DNA from: Pelagerythrobacter rhizovicinus
Lineage (GTDB): Bacteria; Pseudomonadota; Alphaproteobacteria; Sphingomonadales; Sphingomonadaceae
DNA length: 64,000 nt
Assembly: GCF_004135625.1 (NCBI RefSeq)
Contig: NZ_SDPV01000002.1
Span: 434,001-498,000 of the forward strand
Direction: 5' to 3'
A program made the translations under genes and the position numbers. Positions 6,618-27,346 of this stretch are shown here, piece by piece. The notes beneath the pieces are model-generated. The model saw only the letters and a program-made list of their open reading frames with translations, did no database searches and was not told the DNA's origin. Position 1 is the first letter of the stretch. The number at the start of each line of letters is the position of its first letter.

Positions 6618-7331
6618 ATGGATGCTTTCTACTTCTTGAAGAGCAGAACCCAGTTTATCCGCTTCTTCTATGCGGAAGGCGCGAAAGGGTTCGCCGACGT
6701 CAAGCACCGGATCGAGAACGAGCTGCCGCCGTTCGACGATCGGCCCTACAGTGAGGATTCCGACCCGCCCTATTTGTCGGAATGGATGGACGCGGAAACC
6801 GCTCGGGAGGTGCTGGGCATCGCCTGCATCTCAATGCTTTCCGACAGCCTCAAGCTATATTTCAGGATGCTGGAAGAGCGGGTCATCCGATTTTCCTTCG
6901 AAAATCGGAAGGCAGCCTTTCGAGACGGCTTCGTCCCCGCCTATTTCGCGGCGCTGGGCGAGATCCTTGACACCGATTGGAGCGATTGCCCAGTTGATCG
7001 CAACCTGATTGAACAGGTTGTTTTGGCCCGCAATCGCGGCCAGCACGGTGAAGACATTACCTCCTTCGACGTGCGGTACGACAAGGCGATGCTCGAGAAG
7101 CATCCTAGGCCATTCTTCATCGGCGACGATGAGATGTCGGTTCTCACGTCGGAGGAAGGTTCGCTGGCTTCGTTGCTCATGCCGACCCTCAAGGTGAGCG
7201 CCGACCGCCTGGCGAAAGCTCTCGATGAGGTCGATGTGCTTGCCGAATGGATCGAGGCTCGCATCGAGCGCGCCCGCGATTGGCACCTGAGCCGTCGCCC
7301 GGCGCAAGCGGCCGCTTCCCGGGCCGAATAG
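6618..7331 (+). CDS. HEPN-like protein, partner of the downstream nuclease-STAND protein
   Basis: A 237-aa, largely helical protein. Near residue 138 is VVLARNRGQHGEDI, giving an R138-x4-H143 motif of the kind that marks HEPN ribonuclease or nucleotide-binding domains. Preceding helices (SDSLKLYFRMLEERV) fit a HEPN bundle. The ATG at 6618 (MDAFYFLKSRTQF) is preferred; the frame opens from a GTG at 6543, but that extension looks non-coding. It ends 20 bp before the next gene start on the same strand, so the two are likely co-transcribed. A HEPN toxin or regulator beside a STAND-type protein suggests a two-component immune module. The HEPN call rests on a short motif. Confidence 0.5.
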   Translation: MDAFYFLKSRTQFIRFFYAEGAKGFADVKHRIENELPPFDDRPYSEDSDPPYLSEWMDAETAREVLGIACISMLSDSLKLYFRMLEERVIRFSFENRKAAFRDGFVPAYFAALGEILDTDWSDCPVDRNLIEQVVLARNRGQHGEDITSFDVRYDKAMLEKHPRPFFIGDDEMSVLTSEEGSLASLLMPTLKVSADRLAKALDEVDVLAEWIEARIERARDWHLSRRPAQAAASRAE

Positions 7332-7351
7332 CTCCGAGCTGGCCGCGCGCG

Positions 7352-10300
7352 ATGGAATTCACCGCCCTCCAGATTCTACCGCCCAAGGACTGGGGCCGGT
7401 TCGAGGATATGTGCCGCGGCCTGTTCGCGGCGGTATGGGGCGATCCCTACGCGCAGAAAAACGGTCGGACGGGCCAGCCCCAGCATGGCGTTGACGTCTG
7501 GGGACGGGCAGGCGGTCCCCATGCCGGTACGCACTGCGTCCAGTGCAAAGGCAAGGATGCGAACTATGGCGGGACGGTCACGATCGCCGAGTTCGACACC
7601 GAACTCGCCAAGGCTGAGCATTTCCAGCCAGAGCCTGCCTATTGGATCCTTGCCACCACGGCGCCGAACGATGGAGTCCTGCAAAAGCACGCCAGGGTTC
7701 GTTCGGCGGAACGCGAAGCGCAGGGCACCTTTCCGGTCAATGTGCTCGGCTGGGAAACCCTGGTCGCCCTGATGGGCGAACACCCCAAGGTGATCGAGCA
7801 ATTCTATCCCGAGCACGGTAGCCATATGCAGGAGCTGCTCGCCGCCGTGCGTGCGCTACCTCGCCGCGACGAGTTGATCGGCAGGTTCGAGCAGTTCGCC
7901 GTTGCGGCGAACCCGACTTCCACGGACGCGAATGGGATCTGGCAGCCGGTCCGCTTCGATCAGGCCCGCGGTTTGGGTCCGGCGCTGCTCGGCCGGGCGC
8001 TCGGCGCGGCCGACGCCATGGAATGCCCGCGATTGCCCGAAGCTGCCGATCTCATCCGGGAGCTGACGGCAAGCTACTCGGCGAGGCTTGCAGGCGTGCC
8101 GGGCGCGGGAAAGTCGGTTTGCGCGTTGCAGGCAGCCGAGACCCTAGCCGGCAAGGGTTATCGCGTTCTGCGGCTGGCCGACTCAGGAATCGCACGGATC
8201 GAGCTGACCGACGACGATCTGCCGACCGTTCACCTCATCGATGACGCCCATCTCGCCTCGACTCATGAGCTCGCGCTTGCCGAGCAAAGCGCGAGAGCGA
8301 CCAAGCTCCTTCTGTCGACCTTCACGAGCGTTGACGGCGCCGGCACCCGGCCCGGCACGATCCATCTCGATGCCAAGCGCGCGGTCCGGGTGATCGCCGA
8401 CGAGTTGCGCGCCCGGCGCGACGAGACCCTGGCGGCGGTTCGCACGATCGATGATCGGATCGGCGACGGGCTTGGCGAAGAGAGCATCGACTGGCGGCTC
8501 GATGCCGCAGCCCAATCCGACTTCCCGTGGCAATTCTGCTTCGTGCTGAGCGGCGGATGGCACCGAGTACGGTCGATCGTCGCGTCCGCCCGTGCGGCCG
8601 ACGCAGACATCGTGCTGGGAGCCGTAGCGATCCGCCAACTCGCGTCGCGCGATGCGCGGGCCAACGCCAGCGACCTCGCACCCTTGCTCGCGGCCGCGCA
8701 GGTTGCGCCGGAAGCGGCGGAGCGCGCTATCGCCTGGCTCCTCGAACAACGCCTCGTCCTCGCCGCCAACGACCTGCGCTGCCCGCACCAGCGCTTCTCT
8801 GCAGAAGTTTTCGACCCAATCCTGACCGATCAAGACAAGGACGGGCGTCAACAGGTCGTCGCGATGATGGGCCATGCGCTGGCCGATCCGAAGATGCCCC
8901 TCGCAGGGCTCGCCAGCCTCCTAACCCAATTCCGGATGAGCCGGCGCGACATCATCTGGACCCCTCTGATCCGGCGGGACTTGCTCGAGCCCTTTCTCGA
9001 TCGATGCTGGAGCGCTCAGTCGCCGACCGATATCGCTGCTGCGGCATACGCGCTGCGCGAGATCGACATTTACATCGACGATTATTTCGAGCGCCCCACC
9101 AAGGCTCAGGTCGAGACGGTCGCCCGCTGGTTCAGCACGCCGATGCCCGAGGCGGCGTACCGAGTTGGGGCTTACATCAACGGCACCTATCGTAACCGGC
9201 GCTTCGGCCGCTCGATCATCCGCGCTTCAAACCCAGAGGCGATCGCGGAGGCCTTGAACCAAGCCATGGAACCAGCGTCGGCGGATTTTGCCTGCGAGAT
9301 CGCAAAAATGGTGTCGCAGTCCTTCAGCGCGCTGACGCCCGAATGGATCGCCCGCTACCTCGCCCGCGTCGACCGTGCGAAGGCCCTGGCGCTTGTAGCC
9401 GATTGGCCGGCTTCGAGCCCGCTTTATCACGCCGGATGGTTCTGTGCGCAGTTCACCTATCTGGATCGCGAGTTCGGATTCGATTGCGTCGAGACACTGG
9501 CGCCGGCGATCGCCGAACGGATGCGGGCCGACCCGATCGGCGCCTTCGGGCAGCTGGAGGACGTCTTCGAAGCAAGCCTTCGCGTCTTCGATCCCCTGGG
9601 AGCCTACAAGGGCAAATGGGCGCCGACCGCGCGGTCGCGGGCGATCGCCAGCCAATTGTGCTCGGCATGGGAGCCGAAGGCGCTCGCAGGCGAGCTCTCG
9701 CGCGTCACGGCGCGCAGATTTCAGAGCGCAGCGGGATTGTTAAACGTCCTGCGCAAGTCGCTTCCGGGCGCATATGAGGAAACCGTCTCCGCGCTCGACT
9801 GGGATGCAATCGAAGCGGCCGTCGGCGACGGCTGGGCAAAGCTACCGCACAATGCCGACCACTTCCTCGCGCAATGCCATGCGAGCCGAGCCGGACGGAA
9901 GGAAGTCGCCCGCCTGATCGAGAAGCACATCGAGGAAATTGACAAGCTCGACGCACGGTTCGCCTTTATGGCGCCCAAGGCGGCATTTCGTCAGATTGAA
10001 CGCGGCGCGCGGATCGTCCTGTCCGGCCGATGGCAGCTAGGCGCTGGTGTTCTCGCCGAGTTTTACAGGCGTCGGCCGGAGTTGGTGCAGGCGCTGCTCG
10101 GCAACCATCCCGCGTTGCTGGCGGCGGCACTCTCGAAGGAAAGCCCGAGCTTCTTCGACGACGCCTTGCCGTTCCTGCGCGTGTGCCGACAGGTTGCGCC
10201 GGAAGCCTTCGAGAATATCCTCGGTCAGATCGACCCAGAGATTGCGGAGAAGGGGTGGCGAAACGCCCTGCTTGGCCGGAATGGGAAGCACAAGGCGCGC

Positions 10301-10453
10301 AATGCCTCTGGCCGCTCCGCCATCGCGTGGCTCGTCCACGTCACTCAGGACCGGCCCGATCCGCTCGGCGATCTCGCCCGGCGCTTGCTTGCGGAGCTGC
10401 CCAAGGAGACGAAGATAAGCCCGAAAAAGCTCGAGCCGTTTTCCGACCTATAG
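7352..10453 (+). CDS. Restriction-endonuclease/P-loop NTPase fusion (STAND-like, Avs-type architecture)
   Basis: A 1033-aa protein in three parts. Residues ~1-150 form a restriction-endonuclease-like fold: GQPQHGVDVWG with D48, then VQCKGKD with Q64-x-K66, a PD-(D/E)XK variant with Gln in place of Glu. Residues ~240-400 are a P-loop NTPase with Walker A GVPGAGKS (248-255) and Walker B VHLIDDAH (293-300). The remaining ~600 residues are helical and repeat-like without TM segments, as in the sensor halves of STAND/AVAST proteins. The start is MEFTALQILPPKDW at 7352, in frame but downstream of a longer opening at 7247. By analogy, target binding to the C-terminal half would trigger oligomerisation and DNA cutting; the trigger is unknown. 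Confidence 0.75.
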   Translation: MEFTALQILPPKDWGRFEDMCRGLFAAVWGDPYAQKNGRTGQPQHGVDVWGRAGGPHAGTHCVQCKGKDANYGGTVTIAEFDTELAKAEHFQPEPAYWILATTAPNDGVLQKHARVRSAEREAQGTFPVNVLGWETLVALMGEHPKVIEQFYPEHGSHMQELLAAVRALPRRDELIGRFEQFAVAANPTSTDANGIWQPVRFDQARGLGPALLGRALGAADAMECPRLPEAADLIRELTASYSARLAGVPGAGKSVCALQAAETLAGKGYRVLRLADSGIARIELTDDDLPTVHLIDDAHLASTHELALAEQSARATKLLLSTFTSVDGAGTRPGTIHLDAKRAVRVIADELRARRDETLAAVRTIDDRIGDGLGEESIDWRLDAAAQSDFPWQFCFVLSGGWHRVRSIVASARAADADIVLGAVAIRQLASRDARANASDLAPLLAAAQVAPEAAERAIAWLLEQRLVLAANDLRCPHQRFSAEVFDPILTDQDKDGRQQVVAMMGHALADPKMPLAGLASLLTQFRMSRRDIIWTPLIRRDLLEPFLDRCWSAQSPTDIAAAAYALREIDIYIDDYFERPTKAQVETVARWFSTPMPEAAYRVGAYINGTYRNRRFGRSIIRASNPEAIAEALNQAMEPASADFACEIAKMVSQSFSALTPEWIARYLARVDRAKALALVADWPASSPLYHAGWFCAQFTYLDREFGFDCVETLAPAIAERMRADPIGAFGQLEDVFEASLRVFDPLGAYKGKWAPTARSRAIASQLCSAWEPKALAGELSRVTARRFQSAAGLLNVLRKSLPGAYEETVSALDWDAIEAAVGDGWAKLPHNADHFLAQCHASRAGRKEVARLIEKHIEEIDKLDARFAFMAPKAAFRQIERGARIVLSGRWQLGAGVLAEFYRRRPELVQALLGNHPALLAAALSKESPSFFDDALPFLRVCRQVAPEAFENILGQIDPEIAEKGWRNALLGRNGKHKARNASGRSAIAWLVHVTQDRPDPLGDLARRLLAELPKETKISPKKLEPFSDL

Positions 10454-10607: not shown

Positions 10608-11537
10608 ATGAATAATGCACTGATGGCGCTCGCGCCGACCCCGTCGACCTGGTTGCAATGGCGTTACGTGGAGCAGCGATTTCGAGGTTTCATCGAGAAC
10701 CTCGCGGTGACAGATGCCCAACTTCAGGATGGCTTGCGCAAGCAGGCCGGTGTTCGCGCCACCCTCAATCGCTGGTACTACGGCCATAATGACGAGGCCG
10801 CCAATTCGCTGCTGACGGGCTCTTGGGGCAAGTACTTGCGGGTTCGTCCGCCGAGGGACGTGGACGTGATGTTCGCCCTGCCTTGGGAGGTCTATAGGCG
10901 CTTCGAAGCGCGTGCAGGCAACCGGCAATCGCAGCTGCTGCAGGAGGTGCGCAGCGTGCTCGCCCAGACCTATCCGCAGAGCGAGATGCGCGGCGACGGC
11001 CAAGTGGTGGTCGTGCGGTTCGCGACGATGCCAGTCGAGATCATTCCGGCTTTCGCGCTCGACAACGGCCAATATCTCATCTGTGACACCAATGACGGTG
11101 GCTCTTACCGGCTGACCGACCCGATCGCCGAGATCGCCTCGCTTGACCAGTCGGACGAAGCGACTGCTGGTGCGACCCGCCGCCTGATTCGGATGGCCAA
11201 GCAGTGGCAGCGACACTGCTCGGTGCCGATCAAGTCCTTCATGCTGGAGCGGATGGCGGTCGAGTTTCTCCGCACCTGGCCTTACTCGCACGACTATTAC
11301 TATCACGACTGGATGGTGCGGGACTTCTTCGCCTTCCTCGTCGAGAATGCCGGCCGTTCGGCCGTGATGCCCGGGACCGGGTTATGGGTCACTTCCGGTG
11401 TCGCCTGGGCGTCGAAGGCGCGCGCGGCCCTCACGAGCGCGCGCAGAGCCTGTGAGTGGGAGCAGGCCAGCCTCGACTTTCTGGCCGCAGGGGAATGGAA
11501 ATCGCTGTTCGGATCGGCGATTGGTTCGACGCTGTGA
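10608..11537 (+). CDS. CD-NTase / SMODS-family nucleotidyltransferase (CBASS signal synthase)
   Basis: About 309 aa. The nucleotidyltransferase core shows GSWGK (71-75) followed by PPRDVDVMF with D84 and D86 as metal ligands. A third acidic position is in MPVEIIPAF (E144). This is the pattern of cGAS/DncV-like enzymes that make cyclic or linear oligonucleotide second messengers upon phage infection. The start at ATG 10608 is preferred over upstream ATG 10536 and TTG 10506 because a GAGGGCG Shine-Dalgarno lies just before it and the protein then begins near the conserved fold. Its 3' end overlaps the next gene by 43 bp, and that gene encodes a SLATT membrane effector, which supports a CBASS role. 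Product nucleotide cannot be told. Confidence 0.85.
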   Translation: MNNALMALAPTPSTWLQWRYVEQRFRGFIENLAVTDAQLQDGLRKQAGVRATLNRWYYGHNDEAANSLLTGSWGKYLRVRPPRDVDVMFALPWEVYRRFEARAGNRQSQLLQEVRSVLAQTYPQSEMRGDGQVVVVRFATMPVEIIPAFALDNGQYLICDTNDGGSYRLTDPIAEIASLDQSDEATAGATRRLIRMAKQWQRHCSVPIKSFMLERMAVEFLRTWPYSHDYYYHDWMVRDFFAFLVENAGRSAVMPGTGLWVTSGVAWASKARAALTSARRACEWEQASLDFLAAGEWKSLFGSAIGSTL

Positions 11538-12094
11538 GCGCTTCCGCCGGACATAGAGCTAGGGCCGACAGGGCGGCGATGCTCGCCGAAGCCCGCAAGC
11601 TCGCGGTCGACGTACTCTATTCGGAGAAGGGGCATTTCGCGGCGGCCAGTGCCTGGCGCAGGCGCAACTACTGGCTCGGCATCCCGGCGGCGCTGATCGG
11701 GGCTGCCGCCGGTGCAACGATCCTTGCCAGCGCCGACCCGGTCGTCTCGGGCATCCTCGCGCTGGCGGGCGCGGCGATCACAGCGCTAATGACGTTTCTC
11801 AATCCCTCTGAACGCGCCGCCCAGCATCAGCGCGCGGGCGTCGCCTATGCCCAGCTGCGCCGCAAGGTTCGTCAGTTCGCGCAGATCGACATGGCGGGGA
11901 TGGAAAGCGCCGCGCTTCGCGCCACGCTGACCGCGCTCACCGAAGAGGTCGGTTCGACCCAGGGCGAGGCGCTGGCGATCCCGTCAGCGGCCTATCGCGC
12001 GGCGATGAAGTCGATCGAGAGTGGCTCGGCCGACTATACCGATCAGGAGTTGGATGCAGCGACGGGCCGCGTCGGTGCGCAGTCGTCCACATAG
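11495..12094 (+). CDS. SLATT-domain two-transmembrane effector (SMODS-associated)
   Basis: A 199-aa protein with the SLATT layout: an N-terminal helix ending in a charged YSEKGHFAAASAWRRRNYW, two closely spaced hydrophobic segments (WLGIPAALIGAAAGATI and VSGILALAGAAITALMTFL), then a long helical cytoplasmic region rich in Ala/Gln/Arg (QHQRAGVAYAQLRRKVRQF). SLATT proteins are predicted pore-forming effectors linked to CD-NTase genes; activation is thought to damage the inner membrane and abort infection. The ATG at 11495 (MEIAVRIGDWFD) sits behind CAGGGGA and lies 43 bp inside the CD-NTase gene, so translation is coupled. No Cap2/Cap3-like accessory genes are present, so this would be a minimal two-gene CBASS. 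Confidence 0.85.
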   Translation: MEIAVRIGDWFDAVSASAGHRARADRAAMLAEARKLAVDVLYSEKGHFAAASAWRRRNYWLGIPAALIGAAAGATILASADPVVSGILALAGAAITALMTFLNPSERAAQHQRAGVAYAQLRRKVRQFAQIDMAGMESAALRATLTALTEEVGSTQGEALAIPSAAYRAAMKSIESGSADYTDQELDAATGRVGAQSST

Positions 12095-12127
12095 CGCAGC
12101 TAGCACCGGGCCGACCGATTGTCCGTT

Positions 12128-13882
12128 TCAACGGTCGAGCAACGCTTCAGCCTGTGTGTTCATGTGCGAGAATGCGGCAATGACCCCGTCGAACACGTGA
12201 TCGAGCGCCTTTCCGAAACCTTGGTTCACGGAGGCGATGTCGAAACTCAAGCTCTCCAGCTGCGCCAGCGTTTCGCCTGCGTTGTGAGCGTCGCCAATCC
12301 GAAGTTCGTTGTTGATGAAGAGTGGTGCGAGCGCGGCGTTTCGTCGCGTCAGATCGTCTGGATCGGTGCCCGCTCCGAAGGAATCGAGATCTTCCCCGTC
12401 GCCGTTGAGACGTTCGAGGACGTTGGTGAGGGCTTGAAGCAGCTTGAGGCTGCCAAGATCCTTGATGTCTGCCCGAGTATGTCCAGCTCGCACCAAGAGA
12501 TTACGCAGAAAGGCGTTTGGGATTTTTTGCCAGATTTCATGGATGCTCTTGCACCGAGAAAGGAACGCCTGCTCTGTCATTTCCAGGGGTGCGACTTGGG
12601 CCAACCGAACCAATTCTGGATAATGGAGCCAGCCGTTCGCGTTGATTTCGGTACGTGAGAGGCCGACGATATCGACGGGCTCGCGGTCATCTCCGAAGCT
12701 CTGTCCGATCGCGCCGAACGCCTCTCCAAACCTAAGCAGCTCGGACGCAAGCCGGCCCGTCTTCCCAGCGATGTGCTCCTCGCTTGGATCGAATTCGGCG
12801 ACCTTCTCAGGCGTCAAGACATGCGCGTGCGCATGAAGGATTTCACGATCCGGCTTAGGCTTGTAGAGCTCGCGCAAAGGTACTCTGACCATGTTCCGCC
12901 CGAGCCGAACGCAGTCGGTGAAACTCCATTGCCCGAGATACGAGGGACTGCAGTACCAGGCTTGTCCGACCTTCGCGGGGATGGTGTCGAAAAAGCCGCT
13001 TTGCTCGTAGCGCTCTAGAAATTGGTCGTTGAGATGAACGGGCGTCGTCGCGGTCAGCGCATCAGCTCGCGCGTGCGTCATAGCTCCATCCACGCCCGGC
13101 CAGACCAGCCCTTCCGCGGTGGGTTCTGGGCACAGCGTTGGTTCGACAGCGTGCACAATTGCCCAGACCTGGATGAGCAAGCGTTCCTCGTATTCGCGAA
13201 TGTCGAGGTCGTACCAACTGCCCTCGGGGTTCAGGACGATGTGCGTTTCCCCCTGCATCAAATCGCGAATTTGGACGCAGTCGGGAAGCAGCGTCTGGTA
13301 GAAGAACAGTCGGACTCCGTATGCTCCGCGCATCCACAGATACCGGCGCAGATACGCGTTGGACATGGACCAGTTCACATTGCGCTTGGACGTGTAGTGG
13401 TATTCGGTCGAGACCTCGCCCTCGGCGACGCCGAACTCGGGCAATGACAGGTCGTCGTAGACCAGTTTTTGCGCATCGCCGCCGAGCACACGCGGAGTGA
13501 GACCAAGAGCGATCCACACCTTCTCTGCTAAATGGTAGGCAAAAAAGGATCCGCCCCCCTGTGACGCGACAATGTAGTCGAGACCGGAAACAGACGGCTG
13601 GAACTCCCTGATCTCTCCGAATTCGTGCACGTCGGGCTGCGAGAAATAGACCACGCCATGTCCCGTTTCGCCATATTTCGAGAGGTCGCCCGGCCCTTGA
13701 TCTGATGCAAGCGCCATGATCATGTGAACGTGCTCGCGGCCGGGGCCGTACGGATCGACCTCGAAGCGTGTCGTCACATCGACCCGGAGATCACTTTCCG
13801 TTCCCACGGGACTCAGCAACCCGAAGAGGCGTGGAGGCAGGAGTTCGGCAGGTATCGGAAATTCGTCGAGGTAATTGGTCAT
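12128..13882 (-). CDS. Unknown 584-aa protein paired with large nuclease-like protein
   Basis: No family recognised. The start MTNYLDEFPIPAELLP at 13882 is preferred, 44 bp after the upstream gene's stop; the frame also opens from a TTG at 13945 inside that gene. The N-terminal ~330 residues contain many Trp/Tyr/His positions (WSMSNAYLRRYLWMRGAYG, HAHAHVLTPE near 370-380) and look like a folded globular domain. The C-terminal ~150 residues are helical (IHEIWQKIPNAFLRNLLVRA). There is no signal peptide, TM segment or P-loop. It follows the 1253-aa nuclease-like gene on the same strand and is the last gene of that operon. A partner or sensor role is inferred only from this pairing. It converges on the SLATT gene with a 33-bp gap. 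Confidence 0.6.
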   Translation of the reverse strand: MTNYLDEFPIPAELLPPRLFGLLSPVGTESDLRVDVTTRFEVDPYGPGREHVHMIMALASDQGPGDLSKYGETGHGVVYFSQPDVHEFGEIREFQPSVSGLDYIVASQGGGSFFAYHLAEKVWIALGLTPRVLGGDAQKLVYDDLSLPEFGVAEGEVSTEYHYTSKRNVNWSMSNAYLRRYLWMRGAYGVRLFFYQTLLPDCVQIRDLMQGETHIVLNPEGSWYDLDIREYEERLLIQVWAIVHAVEPTLCPEPTAEGLVWPGVDGAMTHARADALTATTPVHLNDQFLERYEQSGFFDTIPAKVGQAWYCSPSYLGQWSFTDCVRLGRNMVRVPLRELYKPKPDREILHAHAHVLTPEKVAEFDPSEEHIAGKTGRLASELLRFGEAFGAIGQSFGDDREPVDIVGLSRTEINANGWLHYPELVRLAQVAPLEMTEQAFLSRCKSIHEIWQKIPNAFLRNLLVRAGHTRADIKDLGSLKLLQALTNVLERLNGDGEDLDSFGAGTDPDDLTRRNAALAPLFINNELRIGDAHNAGETLAQLESLSFDIASVNQGFGKALDHVFDGVIAAFSHMNTQAEALLDR

Positions 13883-13926
13883 CTCATTCGACTTTCGGAG
13901 ATTTGCATGCGGCTGTTCGTCCTTCG

Positions 13927-16900
13927 CTACATGCGCGGCGCCCAATCCAGACCATTGAGGTCGCCGAGCATGACGAAGCGTGCATCGGTGGAAGGATGGC
14001 TGGGTACGAAAGCCATCGGTTGCGGACTCTCGAACACGACTAACCCATGCACGGCCGGTGGCTCTTCCAAGTCGTATCGTTGTGCAAGATCAATCCGGTG
14101 TGCGCGCACATATTCGACCCGGTCGAGGTGCTTGCGCAGCTTATCGCGCCGGCCACGCGAATCTGTCTGCCCGCGATATTCGGAAAGGCGACTGCTGGTT
14201 TCGCCCAGCGTGCGGCAGAACCGAATGTCCTTGGCTTCTATCACCCAAGCGTGGTGGCCGTCCGCACTGAGCGCGAGCACGTCGATATCGCCCAACCTCT
14301 TTACCGCGTCGGTTCCCTTGTGGTGCAGCGCATCGGTTACCTTGGTCGATGGGAAAGATGTTAGGCCCAGCGCTCGAATGTGCTCAGCGACACGCTGGTT
14401 GAAGTCGAGACCCATTTTCTCGGCCGCTGCGCCGACGAAGACGCGCATTGCGGGGCTCGTCCAGAACTTGCCTTGCAAGGTTCCTTGCATCGCGCCGGCG
14501 AGATTGTGGAGCGCGGAACGTTCCATCAAGGGCGGCGACACCAGCAGCAACGAATCCTCGTCAGCATCGAGCGCGACGATCGGCCGGGCGATCAACGAGA
14601 AATGGCGGTCAAAGCGACTGACGTCGAAATCAGAAGCACCCAGCCCCGAGGGAAGGGTCTTCCAGCCGCGCCGGGCCGGCAGCGTGAGCCGGTCGATTGC
14701 AGCGGCGGGGTCGATGTCTTCGTAGCCGGGGAGCGCGGCGATTGCGCCGACGAGTTCCGATCGTCGCAGGCGGGGCGCCGCGGTTTTTGCCGCTACCGCG
14801 AGTTCCGCGCAGGCGCCGCTCAGCGCCGTGAAGGCATCGAATGGAATACCGTATTCTGCGACAACGGCGGCTTCAAAGGCACGATCGAGCGGGCCCTGCT
14901 CGGCTGCACGATCGAAATGCGAGCGGTATGCGCGGTCCGCGTCCTGGCGTGCCTCCGAATGCCGCGCATGGACGCTCGGCACGAGCGCCGAGCGCGTGAA
15001 GGCATGATCGTAAAGGATGTCGCCAGTCGGGCTGATCTGTAGCTCGGGCTCGATGAACCCCGCCCGGATCGGAGGAATCAGCTCAGCTGTTTGGAAGAGG
15101 AGCAGTGCTTGCGCGAGCAACTCGTCCACGTCCGCTTGACCGATCGGTCGTCCGCTTGAAAGCGGCGCCTCGGACGCGGCCATTTCCACCACGATCGATG
15201 CCCCGCGGATTACTCCATTGATCTCGCTGCGGCGGCTGAGGCTGCGTTCGAAGTCCTTCTCCGCACCATGAATGGCGCGCAGCGCGCGGGCCGATAGCGT
15301 CCAGGACTGATCCTCGGCCAAGGCGGAGACCAGTCGCGACAGCGCCAGCTCTACAAGCGCCGTGCGGTCATATTCGGCGATCGTCTCCAGCAGCCGTTCG
15401 GTAAGTGCACCATGTTGTGCCATCAGGAACACGAAGCAGTCGTCTGCGCCTTCAATTCGCGGGCCCGCCGAGCGCGGACGTGAAAGGAAGGTCGAGCCGC
15501 AGCGGACGAGCGCCGATGCCGATTCGGGCACTTCCTCGAACGTGGAGATCAGGCCATGTGCCTTGAGCAGCATGAGCGGGCGATCGGCGGCGAACGAATG
15601 GCGCCAGCGGATGTCGTCGGAACCAACCACCTCCTGCATCAGCGCATACAAGTCGGCGCGGTCGACCCGGCCGCCCGCCAGCGCGCTCACGATAGAAAGG
15701 AGCGCCGAGGCAAGGGACAGTTCGGCGTGGTTGTCGGCGCGGTGCAGCCCATGCTGCCAGGCGGGGCCGAGGTCGAGCCGCGCTGTGCGGACATCCCGGT
15801 CCAGCGTGATGGAGATCGCAGCATCGATCGCGACGTTGTCGACCGGGCGTTTCAGGCGATCAGGGGGCCACTCGATAGCGAGCGTGATCAGGACCGGATC
15901 CTGGTCCAGGTCCGGATAGGCTGTGTCGAAGGCCGGTAACCCGACCTCGAGCCAGTGAATTGCCGCTCTCCAAGTCTCATGCGTGTCGAACGCCCGGTCG
16001 CTGCCGGAGTCGGGCACGATCTGCAGCCACACGGGGCGCCGGCCCACCACCAGGCCGAGCATTTCGCCGCGGCCGAGGCCGGTCGTGGAAACGAACGACG
16101 GCTTGTCCGCGTCGAAGAAATCTCCGCGATCGAACCGGGACACGATTTCGAAACGTCCGTCTGGGAGCGGCATTGCGTTACGGTTATGGCGCCGCGCCGC
16201 ATCGCCTCGGACTTCCAACAGCAAGTCGGTTGGGTAGTGGAAAGAAGCCGGTGGCTGGAAACCGACCTCATGCTCGGGGATCAGCGTCCGCCGGGTCTCG
16301 CGCCACAACGCAAACAGGTTGAGCCAGCCATTGGTGTGTTCGATCCGAAAACCTTGGGCTTCGACCAGGCGGAGCTGCTTGCTCAAACGCCACAGGTCCA
16401 TCGGCTTGCCACCTCCGCGGCCGGCGAGGCAAATTGTCGCGGCATCCTCCGGCTCAAGCGCGATCACATCCCAGTCTGGCTCGTCGCTCAATGGCAACGA
16501 GAGACTGCCTGCGCGTCCCCATCCTCCGACGAGCACGATCGACAACCCTTCACGGAAGTCCGGTCGCTTGCGCATCTGCTCCTGCACAAACGCGATCGAG
16601 CGGCTGACTACATTCTCCAGCGACTGGGAGTCCTCGATCACACCGAACCTCGCAGGCGGAACCCCCTCGAAGCCGTCGACGATTTGGAGAAGGTGGATTG
16701 GCCTGCCGACCGAGCTGGCCCAGATCGTCTGACGAACCGGGTGCCCTCCGATCTTCTGGGTCGGCAAGTCCCACATCCGTGCAAAGCCGGCGATACTGAT
16801 GCGCTCGCTTTGTGTGTTCAGCAGCAGGAAGCAAAGGCGGTCGGCTTCGCCATGGGCCACCGCTTCCTCGATGAGGTGCGCACGCGCTGCGATCGAAAGA

Positions 16901-17688
16901 TTGTGCGGGGCGACGACCAGAATGCCCTCGGCGAATGCCATCAGTGGCAGACGCTCGAGCTCGCTGTCTCCGGGCTCCGCATCGCGAATGTTTGTGCCCG
17001 TGGTGCTGCCGAGAATGAAAGGGGCGAGATCACATTCGCTCACGTCCAGGCGGGCCAGGTCGGTCCAGCTGACCAAACAACGCTTTGCAATCCGCGCAAG
17101 ATTACGTTTCCTGGGCAAATCAAGCTTAGCCGAGGACTCGTCTTCGGCAGTAACGCGGTCCGTCAAGCCGGCGCGATCAGCGAGCAAGTCCGAGAGCGCC
17201 AGCAGTGCGTAAGCGCGATCGAAGGCCTCCGAGCTCCAAGGTGATGGTGGCAGATGGCCGAAGGCCTCGAACACGTCCTCGGTGAACGCAGCCGCCTTTT
17301 CCCAGACGCCTTGGAAAAGCCGGTACGGGCCACGCCGTGTCGCAGCGATGGTAACGAAAAAATCCTCGGGCGGATCCTCTAGCTGGTTGATTCCGCAGTC
17401 GACCAGATCGCGGTTGAGTAGCCGATAGAGCTTGTCCCGTGTTGGCCGGACGTCGCCCTGTGCACAGGTGAGAACGAGCCGCATTGCCATGTCCAGGCGC
17501 ACTGAGTTGGAACCGAACGAGGGATCCGTTTGCAGCCCGGCGAGCATCGCAGCTGTCTCTATTGGCTCGAGGAGCGACAGCCGCCGCTCCAAGCCGGCGA
17601 CCGCGTCGAATGTGCTAGCGGGTCTCAGTGAGGCGGGCGTTGCCGCGAACAGCGCTTCCCAGGCATCAGCATCCAATCGATCGGTCAT
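13927..17688 (-). CDS. Very large unknown protein with C-terminal PD-(D/E)XK nuclease signature
   Basis: A 1253-aa protein starting at ATG 17688. Near the C-terminus is GDIDVLALS followed 15 residues later by WVIEAKD: D1136 ... E1151-A-K1153, the core of PD-(D/E)XK nucleases, with a downstream SRLSEYRGQ helix as in NERD- or Mrr-like nucleases. The first ~1100 residues are unassigned; I see no Walker A, DEAD box or methyltransferase motif. They contain several possible α/β segments (GLSIVLVGGWGRAGS, GDFFDADKPSF). The stop lies 44 bp before the 584-aa gene on the same strand. A large sensor fused to a nuclease, next to CBASS and a type III-like system, suggests a defence effector, but the family is new to me. 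Confidence 0.6.
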   Translation of the reverse strand: MTDRLDADAWEALFAATPASLRPASTFDAVAGLERRLSLLEPIETAAMLAGLQTDPSFGSNSVRLDMAMRLVLTCAQGDVRPTRDKLYRLLNRDLVDCGINQLEDPPEDFFVTIAATRRGPYRLFQGVWEKAAAFTEDVFEAFGHLPPSPWSSEAFDRAYALLALSDLLADRAGLTDRVTAEDESSAKLDLPRKRNLARIAKRCLVSWTDLARLDVSECDLAPFILGSTTGTNIRDAEPGDSELERLPLMAFAEGILVVAPHNLSIAARAHLIEEAVAHGEADRLCFLLLNTQSERISIAGFARMWDLPTQKIGGHPVRQTIWASSVGRPIHLLQIVDGFEGVPPARFGVIEDSQSLENVVSRSIAFVQEQMRKRPDFREGLSIVLVGGWGRAGSLSLPLSDEPDWDVIALEPEDAATICLAGRGGGKPMDLWRLSKQLRLVEAQGFRIEHTNGWLNLFALWRETRRTLIPEHEVGFQPPASFHYPTDLLLEVRGDAARRHNRNAMPLPDGRFEIVSRFDRGDFFDADKPSFVSTTGLGRGEMLGLVVGRRPVWLQIVPDSGSDRAFDTHETWRAAIHWLEVGLPAFDTAYPDLDQDPVLITLAIEWPPDRLKRPVDNVAIDAAISITLDRDVRTARLDLGPAWQHGLHRADNHAELSLASALLSIVSALAGGRVDRADLYALMQEVVGSDDIRWRHSFAADRPLMLLKAHGLISTFEEVPESASALVRCGSTFLSRPRSAGPRIEGADDCFVFLMAQHGALTERLLETIAEYDRTALVELALSRLVSALAEDQSWTLSARALRAIHGAEKDFERSLSRRSEINGVIRGASIVVEMAASEAPLSSGRPIGQADVDELLAQALLLFQTAELIPPIRAGFIEPELQISPTGDILYDHAFTRSALVPSVHARHSEARQDADRAYRSHFDRAAEQGPLDRAFEAAVVAEYGIPFDAFTALSGACAELAVAAKTAAPRLRRSELVGAIAALPGYEDIDPAAAIDRLTLPARRGWKTLPSGLGASDFDVSRFDRHFSLIARPIVALDADEDSLLLVSPPLMERSALHNLAGAMQGTLQGKFWTSPAMRVFVGAAAEKMGLDFNQRVAEHIRALGLTSFPSTKVTDALHHKGTDAVKRLGDIDVLALSADGHHAWVIEAKDIRFCRTLGETSSRLSEYRGQTDSRGRRDKLRKHLDRVEYVRAHRIDLAQRYDLEEPPAVHGLVVFESPQPMAFVPSHPSTDARFVMLGDLNGLDWAPRM

Positions 17689-17912: not shown

Positions 17913-18707
17913 TCAAAATAATCGGTTCAGCAGATTCGGTTCGCTCACCTTCAATCTGTCGAGCATGCTGTTCACATAGAACATATCCGGCGTCGCCACG
18001 GCAGGCAGGACGATCACGCCATAATCAGGATCTGCCTTGTCCAATGTGAAGACGACCAGCCCCACACCGTGGATGCTGCACAGCGATTTCAGCCGATTCA
18101 TGTCGTCGCTGCTCGTGGTGCGCGGGACGACGATGTAGCTCTTGTGCGAGAACAGCCTGTAGGCAACTGCCTGTCCGAAGGCGACGACTGGCTGGCTCGG
18201 CGTCGCCTTGATCTCGGCGGTGACGATCTGCGGCTCGAACTTGAACATGTCTTGGGCACGGGGCTTTAGCACGCCCATCACATCCGGTGTGCCCCACTTT
18301 CCGCCGAGACTGCTGCCGCCCAGTTCGCCCGCGATCGTGACTTCGTCGTTCTCCTCCAGCCAGTCCGCAAAGCTGGCATAGAAATCCTGCTCCGCCAACG
18401 TTCCCTGCACGGCGCCGTCCTTCACGGGCACGACGGGCGCGGTCGCAGCGGCTGCGTCAGCGGCAATCGCCTCCGCCGCGTCCTCGTCTACAAACTTAGA
18501 CAGCTGATAGGTGCCGCGGGCGACCTTCACGATATCGTCCGAGCTCTGGAACAGCACTTGGATGGCACCGTGGATGCTGTTGGGCGGCGTATCCGGTGCC
18601 TCGGAGTGGATCAGCTTGAGGATCTCTCCCCAGCGGATCCCGCCAGTATGCTCTTGCAGTATCTCGCGAGCACGCGCCTGGATCTGCTTTCGATTCAACT
18701 TGTCCAT
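17913..18707 (-). CDS. HARE-HTH winged-helix nuclease, third gene of the type III-like cluster
   Basis: A 264-aa protein. Residues 1-72 form a HARE-HTH/HB1-type winged helix (ARAREILQEHTGGIRWGEIL ... VARGTYQLS), a domain known from restriction enzymes, RNA polymerase delta subunit and ASXL proteins. After an Ala-rich linker (~76-96) comes a restriction-endonuclease-like domain with GTPDVMGVL (D142) and VTAEIKATP (E165-x-K167), then a conserved AFGQAVAYRLFSHKSYIVVP helix-strand unit. It starts 9 bp after the res stop on the same strand, so it is probably the third cistron. It could be an accessory nuclease of the restriction complex or a separate modification-dependent nuclease. Confidence 0.7.
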   Translation of the reverse strand: MDKLNRKQIQARAREILQEHTGGIRWGEILKLIHSEAPDTPPNSIHGAIQVLFQSSDDIVKVARGTYQLSKFVDEDAAEAIAADAAAATAPVVPVKDGAVQGTLAEQDFYASFADWLEENDEVTIAGELGGSSLGGKWGTPDVMGVLKPRAQDMFKFEPQIVTAEIKATPSQPVVAFGQAVAYRLFSHKSYIVVPRTTSSDDMNRLKSLCSIHGVGLVVFTLDKADPDYGVIVLPAVATPDMFYVNSMLDRLKVSEPNLLNRLF

Positions 18708-18716
18708 TTCAGCCCC

Positions 18717-21305
18717 TCAACCAATCGCCGCATCGATCTGCCGCGCCACGCCGCCGCCGCGATCGAGTTCCGCCCAGAGGAATATGACCTTGCCGTCGCT
18801 TACTTCCTGCAGCCGCGCGCCGATGTTCTTCTTCTCGCGGCTATCCGCGTTGTCGGTCCGGTCCGCACCCTTGTATTCGACGATCAGCTTGCGGCCGTCC
18901 TGCAGCTGCGCCACGAAATCCGGGTAGAACAGGTCAGACGAGGTCGGCAGCGAATAGGACCAGGTGGTGCGGTCCACGTTCCGCACCCAGAATTGGATCG
19001 CTTCGTGATCATCGATCTGGACGGCGGCCATCCATTCCTCGCCGCCGTGCTTCAAGTCGCCGACCTGCGCGAACAGGTGCTTTCGCGGCCGCCATGGACC
19101 GGCGTAGGGCGTGCGCGGGTCATAGCCCGCCTTCGAGAAGCTGAACCCATTCTCGCCGAGCGCCAGAACGGGTGCGATGTCGGTCATCAGCAACTGCACA
19201 CCGCGCGCACCGGCCTCGCGTCGTAGCTGGGTTACTCGCGCGATGATCGCCCTGCGCAACGCGAACTTCCCGCGAACCAACTGCGGCAGCGGGATACGCT
19301 CCGCGACGCCTTCGACCACGCGACGGCAATATTCGAGGAAGATCGGCTGGGCGACATCGCGCTGGCGCGTCGTGCGGTCGAGGAAACGCGATAACGCCGC
19401 CACGTCCCAGTCGGTCGCGTCGTCCAGCGCCAGTTCGGCAGCCGCGTCAATGCGGCTGTAGACAACCTGATCGCCTTCCACGTCCATCTCGAACGTGTCT
19501 GGCCGCTCGGTCAGCGCGAAGCCCGGGAGACTGGTGTCGACCTGGCTCAGATCCCATCCGCCAACGTCGACCAGCGTTTCGGGGAAGACGATCTCCAGCT
19601 GCCCGTCGCGCTCGATCGCGAGACGCGGCAGAGTCAGCACCTGTCCCTGCTCGGCGAGGGACAGCGTCTCGGCGCGCCGCGCAATGAACGCCTCTACCGC
19701 CGTGATCGGTGTCGTCTCCGGCGTGGCAACGGCGGCGGCGACGTCGCGCAGCACATCGTCAGGCGCATCGGTGTCGAACGTAATCGCGACGCCGCCGTCG
19801 CCGCCATCGGCAATCCGGGTCGCGGCGACCATCTCGGGCGTCCACGCGCTCTGGTCGGGACGTTCCTGAACGCGCAGCACCGGCAATTCAGGCCGGGTGA
19901 ACAACGGCTGGTCATCGCGCCACTCAAAGGTATCGGGCTGCTCGACGATGGCTTCCAATGCCGTGCGCTCATCGAAGCCCATATGGATCAGTCGGTCCTT
20001 CAGCCCCTCCGCCGCCTCGAAGAAGTTCTTCTCCGACACATGCGCATAGGCGCGGTTCAGCTCCTCGGATGAGCGGCGCGTCGCGAACGGCATGCGCAAC
20101 ACCCGGCCCAGCAGCTGCTCTACAGCGCCGCCACTGCGGATGCTGGCGAGCGAGCAGAAGACGTAGGCGAAGGAGCAATCCCAGCCTTCCTTCAGCGCGT
20201 CGACGGTGATGACGTGCTCGATCTTGCAAGCGGGGTCGAACAGGTCGATGCCGTCGAGCTCGCGCTGGTTGCCTGTCGCGACCGCGATCCGGTCTTCGGG
20301 AATGCGGCAATCTTCGATCAGATGGCGCTTCACCACGTCGACCGTCGCCTCCGCGCCTTCGCGGGCGGGCTGCGCCTGATAGAGCGCGATTGGGCGGATG
20401 CCGCCGCCGTCCTTCTCGGCGATACCTTCCAGCCATGCGCGGTTGTCGACCGCATGGGCAATCGCCTGCTGCCAACTGGTATGCTGTGACAGGTGGATCG
20501 GGAGCTTGATCATATCCGCGGCCTTAAGTTCAGCGGCGGTGGCCGAGACGATGACGTTGGAGCGCACCGGCGTCGCCGTGAACTCGACCACAGCGGCAGG
20601 TGCCAGACGCCCGAAGGTCTCGCCAGACAGCGTCGATGTGAAGTTGTGCGCCTCGTCCACGATCACCAGCGGGCGGTGCAGCTTCATCAGGTTCGCAAAG
20701 CTTGCGATCGGCTTACCCCGCCTGGCGCCATCCTCATGCCGAGCAACGTGGGCTCCGGCCGGCAGCGACGCAAAATGCGGCTCCAGCTCTTCGTCATCCA
20801 AATATACATTACGGTCCTCGGCGTTGCGCACGCGGAATGCCTGCACGGTCGACACGATCACCGTCGCGGCATCGGCCATGTCCTGCGGGCGCAGCTGGCG
20901 CCGCTCATCGATGCCGTAGACGCGCACCGCACCGCCGAACGTCGCCTCCAGCGCCTGACGATAGGGATGGCCTACCTTCTTGAGCGCGCCCAACGTCTGT
21001 TCGGCTATGGTGGTCGACGTGACCAGCCACAGCACCACCGGGAAGCGTCGGTTCAGGTAGGTGTCGCGCGCCACGCCGATCGCATGGCTCGCGAGCAATG
21101 TCTTGCCGCCGCCCGTCGGCAGGCGCAGACAGCAATACGGCACGTCCGGTAGCCCGGCGAGCGGGCGATAGGCCGCGCCGTAGGCGCCCGGCTCGCCGAC
21201 CGCGCATGCGGCAGCATAGGCCCGTGCGTGATCGCGGATCGCCGCTTGGTCGAGGAAGGTGCGCAGCGCATCGAGCGCCCGGTGCTGATAGTCCTTCAGT
21301 TCCAT
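18717..21305 (-). CDS. res: Type III restriction endonuclease Res-like helicase/nuclease subunit
   Basis: An 862-aa superfamily 2 helicase-nuclease. Motif I PTGGGKT is at 63-69 and motif II DEAH at 217-220 (VIVDEAHNF). Motif III is FTATPVRSN, and motif VI lies in GGAVEQLLGRVLRMPF. The last ~70 residues hold a PD-(D/E)XK nuclease, DFVAQLQDG ... VEYKGAD (D796, E810-x-K812). It would translocate on DNA and cut after collision or signalling, in complex with the Mod protein. Its ATG overlaps the mod stop by one base (TGATG), so the genes are coupled. Length is close to the usual ~900-1000 aa of Res proteins. Confidence 0.88.
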   Translation of the reverse strand: MELKDYQHRALDALRTFLDQAAIRDHARAYAAACAVGEPGAYGAAYRPLAGLPDVPYCCLRLPTGGGKTLLASHAIGVARDTYLNRRFPVVLWLVTSTTIAEQTLGALKKVGHPYRQALEATFGGAVRVYGIDERRQLRPQDMADAATVIVSTVQAFRVRNAEDRNVYLDDEELEPHFASLPAGAHVARHEDGARRGKPIASFANLMKLHRPLVIVDEAHNFTSTLSGETFGRLAPAAVVEFTATPVRSNVIVSATAAELKAADMIKLPIHLSQHTSWQQAIAHAVDNRAWLEGIAEKDGGGIRPIALYQAQPAREGAEATVDVVKRHLIEDCRIPEDRIAVATGNQRELDGIDLFDPACKIEHVITVDALKEGWDCSFAYVFCSLASIRSGGAVEQLLGRVLRMPFATRRSSEELNRAYAHVSEKNFFEAAEGLKDRLIHMGFDERTALEAIVEQPDTFEWRDDQPLFTRPELPVLRVQERPDQSAWTPEMVAATRIADGGDGGVAITFDTDAPDDVLRDVAAAVATPETTPITAVEAFIARRAETLSLAEQGQVLTLPRLAIERDGQLEIVFPETLVDVGGWDLSQVDTSLPGFALTERPDTFEMDVEGDQVVYSRIDAAAELALDDATDWDVAALSRFLDRTTRQRDVAQPIFLEYCRRVVEGVAERIPLPQLVRGKFALRRAIIARVTQLRREAGARGVQLLMTDIAPVLALGENGFSFSKAGYDPRTPYAGPWRPRKHLFAQVGDLKHGGEEWMAAVQIDDHEAIQFWVRNVDRTTWSYSLPTSSDLFYPDFVAQLQDGRKLIVEYKGADRTDNADSREKKNIGARLQEVSDGKVIFLWAELDRGGGVARQIDAAIG

Positions 21306-22930
21306 CAGCGCGCCCTCACGTCATAGGGCGTCTGCTTGAATGTCACGCCCGCCTCCGCCAACCGCGCCGCGCCCAGCTTGCTCCATTCGCCATAGACCGT
21401 AATCGGCCCGTGCCAGCCGCTCTCCTCGCGCAGCCGGGCGAGCAGCGCAGCGGTTAGCACGTTTCCGCCACTGACCGAGCGGTCGCCAAGGATGCCGTTG
21501 TAGAGCAAGGCATAGGCAATCCCGTCATGCACCCCCAGCACCGGCGTGTCGGCCGTCCCGATGAAGGGCGTGCCCGTCTCGCTGAACCAAACATGCGCGG
21601 CCAGCGTCCGGAAGGCGATACCATCAGCGATGTGCCCCTCGGAATCGAACACGGCTGCGCCGAGCCGATAGAAGCGATAGCCGCCACCGCCGGCCCAGCC
21701 GACCGCTTCGGAAACTCCGCCCTGTTCGCCCGCGATCACCTTGTCGAGCCGCGGCTTGCAGTGGGTTACGGCATGCTCGCCCATCTCGATACCGATCCAG
21801 CGCCGCCCCATCTTGTGGGCGACCGCCGCTGTCGTGCCGGAGCCGAGGAAGCTGTCGAGCACCAAATCTCCACGAACTGAAAATAATTCTAAGATGCGTC
21901 TAATAAGTGCTTCGGGCTTTTTGCCCTTTGGAAACCTGACATCGCCTTCATTGTGTATATTGTTTGATAGCAGATCGTCCCAAATATTCGAAAGCGCCTC
22001 CCCCGTGGTATATCTTCCATCAATCATGCGAAGCTTACTACTATAGAATAGCCACCTTTGGCCTCCACGGAGAACAATAGGAAGTTTATCATCCCTTTTT
22101 ATCAAGAACGTATCGGAGGGATTCCTCTCGGACAGTTCAATTATTTCTTGAGTTTCTTTCGCAACTTGGCTGGTATCAGGTCGCACAGGTTGCACAACGC
22201 GATCGGCGTGGTCCAACACGAAACGCTCGATCTTTGATTCGAATCCTTGGCCGAGCACCTTTTTCGCTTCACCAAGAGTTCGAAAGTCAAAGTGTTTGCA
22301 GAAAGCCTTATTAACTGTTATCAAACGCCAGTCTTGCATATCTTCATCGAAATTTTCAATGAACGAACTGTAGCGTTTATCCCTTGGTCTGGCTGCATAA
22401 GACCTTCCAGGCTTCCATTCATTCTTATTTTTAGCATATATGACAATATAGTTGGCCGTTGTAACTAATCCTGGATTGATAGTTTTATGGCCTTTCGGGG
22501 CAGATTGCTTGAATGTGACGAAGTATGTCCTATTTTTTCGCCCCATTATCTCGTCAAGGATCACCGTTGCATACGCAATCTCGTTAGCATCCAAATGAAC
22601 GATGAGAGTTCCATCGTCAGCTAAAAATTCTCGAAGAAGAGCGAGGCGTGGATACATTAATCCAAGCCAAACTGAATGCTCTAGATTATCATCATAATTT
22701 TCAAAGGCCTCCCCCGTATTAAAGGGAGGATCAATATAAATACATTTCACCGCTCCCTTGTAATAGGGAAGCAGCGCCTTCAGTGCGTCGAGGTTGTCGC
22801 CCTGAATAAGCATGTTACCGGTCGCGGCGTCGCCCCCGTCGAGCGATGGCACCGTTTCCAACAGCCGATACGGCACGTCCGCCGCCGCGCGCACATCTTC
22901 ACCGCGCGTCATCCAATCCAGTATCGGCAC
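21305..22930 (-). CDS. mod: Type III-like adenine-specific DNA methyltransferase (Mod)
   Basis: A 541-aa beta-class N6-adenine/N4-cytosine methyltransferase. The catalytic DPPF (67-70, in CIYIDPPFNTGEAF) comes before the SAM-binding DSFLGSGTT (359-367), the order typical of Mod proteins. The ~280 residues between them contain the target-recognition region. That middle part (roughly 21880-22740) is strikingly AT-rich: hand counts of three 60-base lines give 21-25 G+C, against 41 of 60 in a line of the adjoining res gene. This points to replacement of the recognition module by recombination. It is the first gene of the cluster. Methylation protects host DNA and directs Res. Confidence 0.88.
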   Translation of the reverse strand: MPILDWMTRGEDVRAAADVPYRLLETVPSLDGGDAATGNMLIQGDNLDALKALLPYYKGAVKCIYIDPPFNTGEAFENYDDNLEHSVWLGLMYPRLALLREFLADDGTLIVHLDANEIAYATVILDEIMGRKNRTYFVTFKQSAPKGHKTINPGLVTTANYIVIYAKNKNEWKPGRSYAARPRDKRYSSFIENFDEDMQDWRLITVNKAFCKHFDFRTLGEAKKVLGQGFESKIERFVLDHADRVVQPVRPDTSQVAKETQEIIELSERNPSDTFLIKRDDKLPIVLRGGQRWLFYSSKLRMIDGRYTTGEALSNIWDDLLSNNIHNEGDVRFPKGKKPEALIRRILELFSVRGDLVLDSFLGSGTTAAVAHKMGRRWIGIEMGEHAVTHCKPRLDKVIAGEQGGVSEAVGWAGGGGYRFYRLGAAVFDSEGHIADGIAFRTLAAHVWFSETGTPFIGTADTPVLGVHDGIAYALLYNGILGDRSVSGGNVLTAALLARLREESGWHGPITVYGEWSKLGAARLAEAGVTFKQTPYDVRAR

Positions 22931-27270: not shown

Positions 27271-27346
27271 TGGTGAGCCCTGCTGGGTTCGAACCAGCGA
27301 CCTACTGATTAAAAGTCAGTTGCTCTACCGACTGAGCTAAGGGCCC
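27271..27346 (-). tRNA. tRNA-Lys (anticodon TTT)
   Basis: 76-nt tRNA on the minus strand. The 5' acceptor strand GGGCCCT pairs with AGGGCTC before the discriminator A and an encoded CCA (27271-27273). The anticodon loop CTTTTAA gives TTT, and the T-arm GGTTCGAACC is intact. Islands often integrate into the 3' end of tRNA genes; here the accessory DNA lies on the 3' side. Confidence 0.97.

Follow-up and report, generated by a model that had tools for sequence, protein, structure and literature searches.

An Upx-related nuclease gene and a phage-borne gene for a putative HEPN-like ribonuclease as probable independent neighbours in a bacterial defence island

Two large genes on one strand of a bacterial defence island raise the question of whether they encode a single defence system or only happen to be neighbours. 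We examined such a pair in a 64,000-nucleotide stretch (hereafter, the window) of the 3.0-Mb genome of Pelagerythrobacter rhizovicinus (contig NZ_SDPV01000002.1, positions 434,001 to 498,000). An earlier note, made from the sequence alone, had described the pair as one sensor-nuclease defence unit of an unnamed kind, consisting of a protein of 1253 amino acids (aa) and a 584-aa partner. Both open reading frames (ORFs) proved real and lie on the minus strand at 13927-17688 and 12128-13882, and a gap of 44 nucleotides (nt) separates the stop of the first from the ATG of the second (13883-13926). The reading that we favor, with a probability of roughly two in three, is that two independent single-gene defence cassettes stand side by side in the island, one for an Upx-like protein and the other, largely phage-borne, for a new HEPN-like putative ribonuclease (RNase).

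Profile matches identify the 1253-aa protein as a divergent relative of the anti-phage protein Upx, which was reportedly first described by Gao et al. in 2020. The product of this ATG-initiated gene matched the PADLOC Upx model PDLC02221 with an expect value (E) of 3.1e-119 (residues 31-1230 against model positions 38-1252 of 1271) and the NCBIfam family NF042954 with 487.8 bits (residues 29-1228 against positions 18-1223 of 1240), a collinear match over the full length. The equivalog cut-off of NF042954, 1900 bits, was not reached, and we therefore named the protein Upx-related rather than an Upx equivalog. The other full-length relatives that were scanned (six, L018 being left out) all matched NF042954 at 463-864 bits, none of them at 1900, and a Salmonella Upx fragment, taken as the reference point for the family of that name, scored 1483 bits over model positions 412-1240. 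These matches overturned two statements of the earlier note, namely that this protein belonged to no recognised family and that the defence system was of a kind without a name.

The prediction of a defence-type protein ending in a PD-(D/E)XK nuclease core was supported. The C-terminal region concerned (13927-14421, minus strand; residues ~1090-1253, with borders drawn by eye) contains the D1136, E1151, A1152, and K1153 residues that had been picked out, and D1136 (14281-14283), E1151 (14236-14238), and K1153 (14230-14232) form the predicted catalytic triad. Presence of the triad in homologues had been set as a test beforehand; it was invariant in every relative aligned, both in a full-length alignment (8 of 8 rows, counting the window's protein) and in a C-terminal alignment (5 of 5 rows) to which the Salmonella fragment and a Sinorhizobium protein had been added; three rows are common to both alignments. 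Upx and the 1253-aa protein are alike in size, in the full-length collinear match, in the C-terminal D-ExK, and in having neighbours that vary between loci, whereas they differ in the score (488 bits against the 1900 cut-off) and in the second gene that follows 44 nt downstream in the window. Among the compared Upx loci, the neighbours in common, as picked from ORFs, were an integrase in L015 and L018 only and a 27% similar methyltransferase in L013 and L015; the 584-aa gene lay near Upx in the window and L002 only. According to two reports, Upx appears among the nucleic-acid-degrading systems of Pseudomonas aeruginosa (PMC10855318) and is found almost exclusively in one hotspot in PAGI-1 genomes (PMC12629846). 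The Upx-like nuclease of the window widens Upx in Alphaproteobacteria and adds no new kind.

The distribution of the two genes bears on whether they belong together. Among 396 genomes of the order that were searched, two contained the 584-aa protein and eight the Upx-like protein (one a fragment, G104), and the only genome listed for both was that of the window. We further compared the flanks of 21 other records of the 584-aa gene (L002, L012, L021-L026, L028-L037, L048, L054, and L055) and of seven other full-length Upx loci (L002, L013-L018) by tblastn at E 1e-5. Within the fetched flanks, which extended up to 10 kb but could be missing at contig ends, Upx was found beside 1 of the 21 records and the 584-aa gene beside 1 of the 7 Upx loci, the locus being L002 in both cases. 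Whole-genome searches gave no Upx match in the 584-aa carriers G163 and G733, with the genome of L002 positive as a control, and no 584-aa relative in any of six Upx carriers, the latter search being run without an internal positive control. The neighbourhood check proposed in the earlier note did not support its claim of a partnership in one unit: in almost every other locus examined, the two genes did not occur together.

The alternative, which we consider unlikely, is a single sensor-nuclease complex of both proteins, amounting to a two-gene version of Upx in Erythrobacter-like bacteria. Co-transcription is probable because the genes share a strand and are 44 nt apart. The gap held no terminator-like site (the sole one found was within the 584-aa gene), and the sole promoter-like site lay upstream of the Upx-like gene, although the counts of both kinds of site were at or below the means of shuffled sequences. 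However, the other gene was not in the fetched flanks of 20 of the 21 records or of 6 of the 7 Upx loci. For the 584-aa gene, L002 is one of the two closest relatives, and it has Upx about 1 kb away. This proximity speaks for a complex and weighs against independent cassettes, so that a degree of local linkage within a shared island is likely. In L002, however, the Upx-like and 584-aa genes converge on a DUF5677 gene (10798-11664, minus strand) that lies between them. Between the window and L002, the 584-aa proteins are 80% identical and the Upx proteins 41%, a difference that argues against a complex but could merely reflect different evolutionary rates of the two proteins. DNA similarity to the window covers 12118-13885 for L002 and 12145-13883 for L012, matching the bounds of the ORF to about 20 bases, and L002 shares one further similar piece of 154 bases within the Upx gene. 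The 584-aa gene is probably not a partner of the Upx-like gene; what looked like a two-gene unit is probably an accident of neighbourhood in a defence island. Adjacency on the same strand in such an island is a weak sign that genes belong to one system.

The 584-aa gene occurred on mobile elements, namely prophage-like contigs and plasmids that had no Upx gene in its vicinity. A scan of viral contigs revealed full-length relatives of its product at 10 loci with 36-55% identity, and a second scan added three more contigs (L048, L054, and L055); in viral contigs the gene often had the opposite orientation to its neighbours. When 10 chosen neighbour proteins from 8 viral loci were scanned against PHROGs, all 10 matched phage families: minor tail, major head, single-stranded DNA annealing, DNA polymerase, DNA methyltransferase, and large terminase proteins, two integrases, and two endolysins. 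A collection of annotated phages gave no match to the 584-aa protein. Plasmid carriers were found in Paraburkholderia, Sphingomonas, Rhizobium, and Novosphingobium, and transfer genes lie near the gene in L002, as read from the ORFs. On a Burkholderia glumae plasmid (L022), the gene was broken into several frames. In the Rhizobium carrier, TIR and RES genes adjoin it (the TIR gene in L024). Genes for SLFN_AlbA_2 proteins adjoin it directly in L012 (11526-12668) and L032 (2645-3796), on opposite sides, and are perhaps a recurrent neighbour.

The ORF at 12128-13945 (minus strand) could be translated from a TTG, giving 605 aa, or from the ATG at 13882, giving 584 aa. Two observations support the shorter form: homologues align from that methionine, and the DNA of the two nearest relatives becomes similar at 13883-13885. 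Here the statement that no family is recognised held: the protein matched none in Pfam, NCBIfam, or PADLOC, and nothing above noise in PHROGs (E 0.034). Twenty distinct intact sequences, including that of the window, were aligned, and the rows were 23-80% identical to the window's protein; a relative with 80% identity is found in an uncultured Erythrobacter. Compared with L002, the gene is under purifying selection, with a nonsynonymous rate (dN) of 0.12 and a synonymous rate (dS) of 2.5, the latter near saturation.

Structure prediction with AlphaFold2 suggested two parts. Secondary structure indicated a beta-rich N-terminal region, putatively sensory or regulatory (residues ~1-369; 12776-13882), in which several stretches had a predicted local distance difference test (pLDDT) value below 50, and an all-helical C-terminal domain (residues 370-584; 12128-12775). 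A model of residues 358-584 was all-helical, with a pLDDT of 90.0 and a predicted template modelling score of 0.87. In this domain, R528 (12299-12301) and H533 (12284-12286) form an R-x4-H motif that was conserved without exception in the 20 aligned sequences and fits the HEPN Rx4-6H motif. Because an invariant Rx4H lies in a confidently modelled all-helical C-terminal domain, sequence and model together point to a putative HEPN-type RNase. The earlier description of this protein as lacking any recognisable domain stands for profile searches, but motif and model suggest one.

Other traits of the domain agreed with HEPN to varying degrees. Random placement of the invariant arginine and histidine yielded such a spacing in 2.6% of trials, in a test that was post hoc to the motif. 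An Ex3[KR] element, common but not universal in HEPN, was present upstream in 17 of 20 rows and missing in L023, L024, and L025. The residue following the equivalent of R528 was isoleucine in 12 of 20 rows, asparagine in 6, and glutamine in 2, rather than regularly the polar residue that is typical, though not universal, of HEPN. At a threshold of E <= 1, none of eight rows of the family matched a HEPN profile in Pfam, PADLOC, or NCBIfam. The lack of a HEPN profile and of a clear match in structure searches, along with the phage, plasmid, and integrative-element setting, would suit a mobile-element gene with a non-defence role in lysogeny, transfer, or anti-defence, whose C-terminus is a non-HEPN or catalytically dead helix bundle. 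We regard this explanation as unlikely. Retention of R-x4-H in 20 of 20 rows and of Ex3[KR] in 17 of 20 across 23-80% identity is hard to explain without catalysis, and the gene adjoins defence-type genes, namely TIR (L024), SLFN_AlbA_2 (L012 and L032), and CBASS and restriction-modification genes (window).

The nearest functional model for the 584-aa protein, compared by description, is Tha, which is described (PMC11087260) as a HEPN protein of Staphylococcus aureus prophages that has R-x4-H and is activated by the tail proteins of an infecting phage. In the same report, protection is lost in the H270A mutant. Tha and the 584-aa family are both carried by prophages and share a C-terminal HEPN-type R-x4-H behind an N-terminal part without a known domain. 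Tha-1, however, has 301 aa and shares a non-contiguous operon with its inhibitor (PMC11087260), whereas the proteins of the 584-aa family have ~585 aa and a large beta-rich N-terminal part. ApeA (HEPN_Apea) resembles the 584-aa protein in its mostly beta N-terminal part and C-terminal HEPN, as described in PMC3710099. The corresponding profile, PF18739, was matched in 7 of 147 genomes from this order but matched none of eight rows of the 584-aa family, and profile comparison by hhalign gave a probability of 0.4%.

We find the case evenly balanced for a broader proposal, that the 584-aa family consists of large stand-alone HEPN-type RNases forming an undescribed class, spread as cargo of tailed prophages, plasmids, and integrative elements at least within Proteobacteria, and possessing a beta-rich phage-sensing N-terminus of its own. 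It would be a counterpart of Tha and ApeA outside the libraries searched. "Undescribed" here refers to Pfam, NCBIfam, PADLOC, PHROGs, and a literature search that covered few subscription journals. The 584-aa mobile family is the part of interest at this locus and its more useful half, being conserved, phage-carried, outside those libraries, and equipped with two candidate catalytic residues.

The gene anatomy, the relationship to Upx, the conserved catalytic-type motifs of both proteins, the occurrence of the two genes apart from each other, and the phage setting of the 584-aa gene are observed. Taking the two genes as independent cassettes, we infer HEPN membership, RNase activity, a role in defence, and every functional step of the following mechanism. 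The Upx-like protein would act as a stand-alone system in which the long N-terminal part would recognise infection and the C-terminal PD-(D/E)XK nuclease would cut nucleic acid, separately from the 584-aa protein. The 584-aa protein would be stand-alone cargo of prophages, plasmids, and integrative elements, and its beta-rich N-terminal ~370 residues would sense something of the incoming phage. The C-terminal helical domain, as a metal-independent HEPN-type RNase using R528 and H533, would then cleave RNA and stop growth. In the manner of the prophage HEPN protein Tha, this would shield the lysogen or host from a second phage.

The setting described in the earlier note was confirmed on both sides of the pair. 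Upstream in transcription order, on the minus strand, lie a type III methyltransferase gene (21305-22930), which comes first, and a type III Res gene (18717-21305) overlapping it by 1 nt. A gene for a 264-aa protein (17913-18707) follows after a 9-nt gap, so that these three are closely spaced, and the 1253-aa gene begins 224 nt beyond the last of them. The 264-aa protein matched no family over the cut-off in Pfam or NCBIfam; it has a winged-helix-like N-terminus below the cut-off and, judged by eye, possibly a second PD-(D/E)XK core. On the far side, a cyclase gene of a cyclic-oligonucleotide-based antiphage signalling system (CBASS) and a gene for a SLATT two-transmembrane (2TM) protein are oriented toward the five minus-strand genes.

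Adjoining the CBASS genes, a plus-strand gene (7247-10453) encodes a 1068-aa protein with a weak nSTAND3/AAA match, a sub-threshold Mrr-like match at the N-terminus, and no PADLOC match; it is possibly an Avs-like STAND nuclease. Another plus-strand gene (441-1757) encodes a 438-aa protein with a C-terminal HNH endonuclease domain (PF01844). A tRNA-Lys gene (27271-27346, minus strand) on the right-hand side of the defence region may mark the insertion site of the island.
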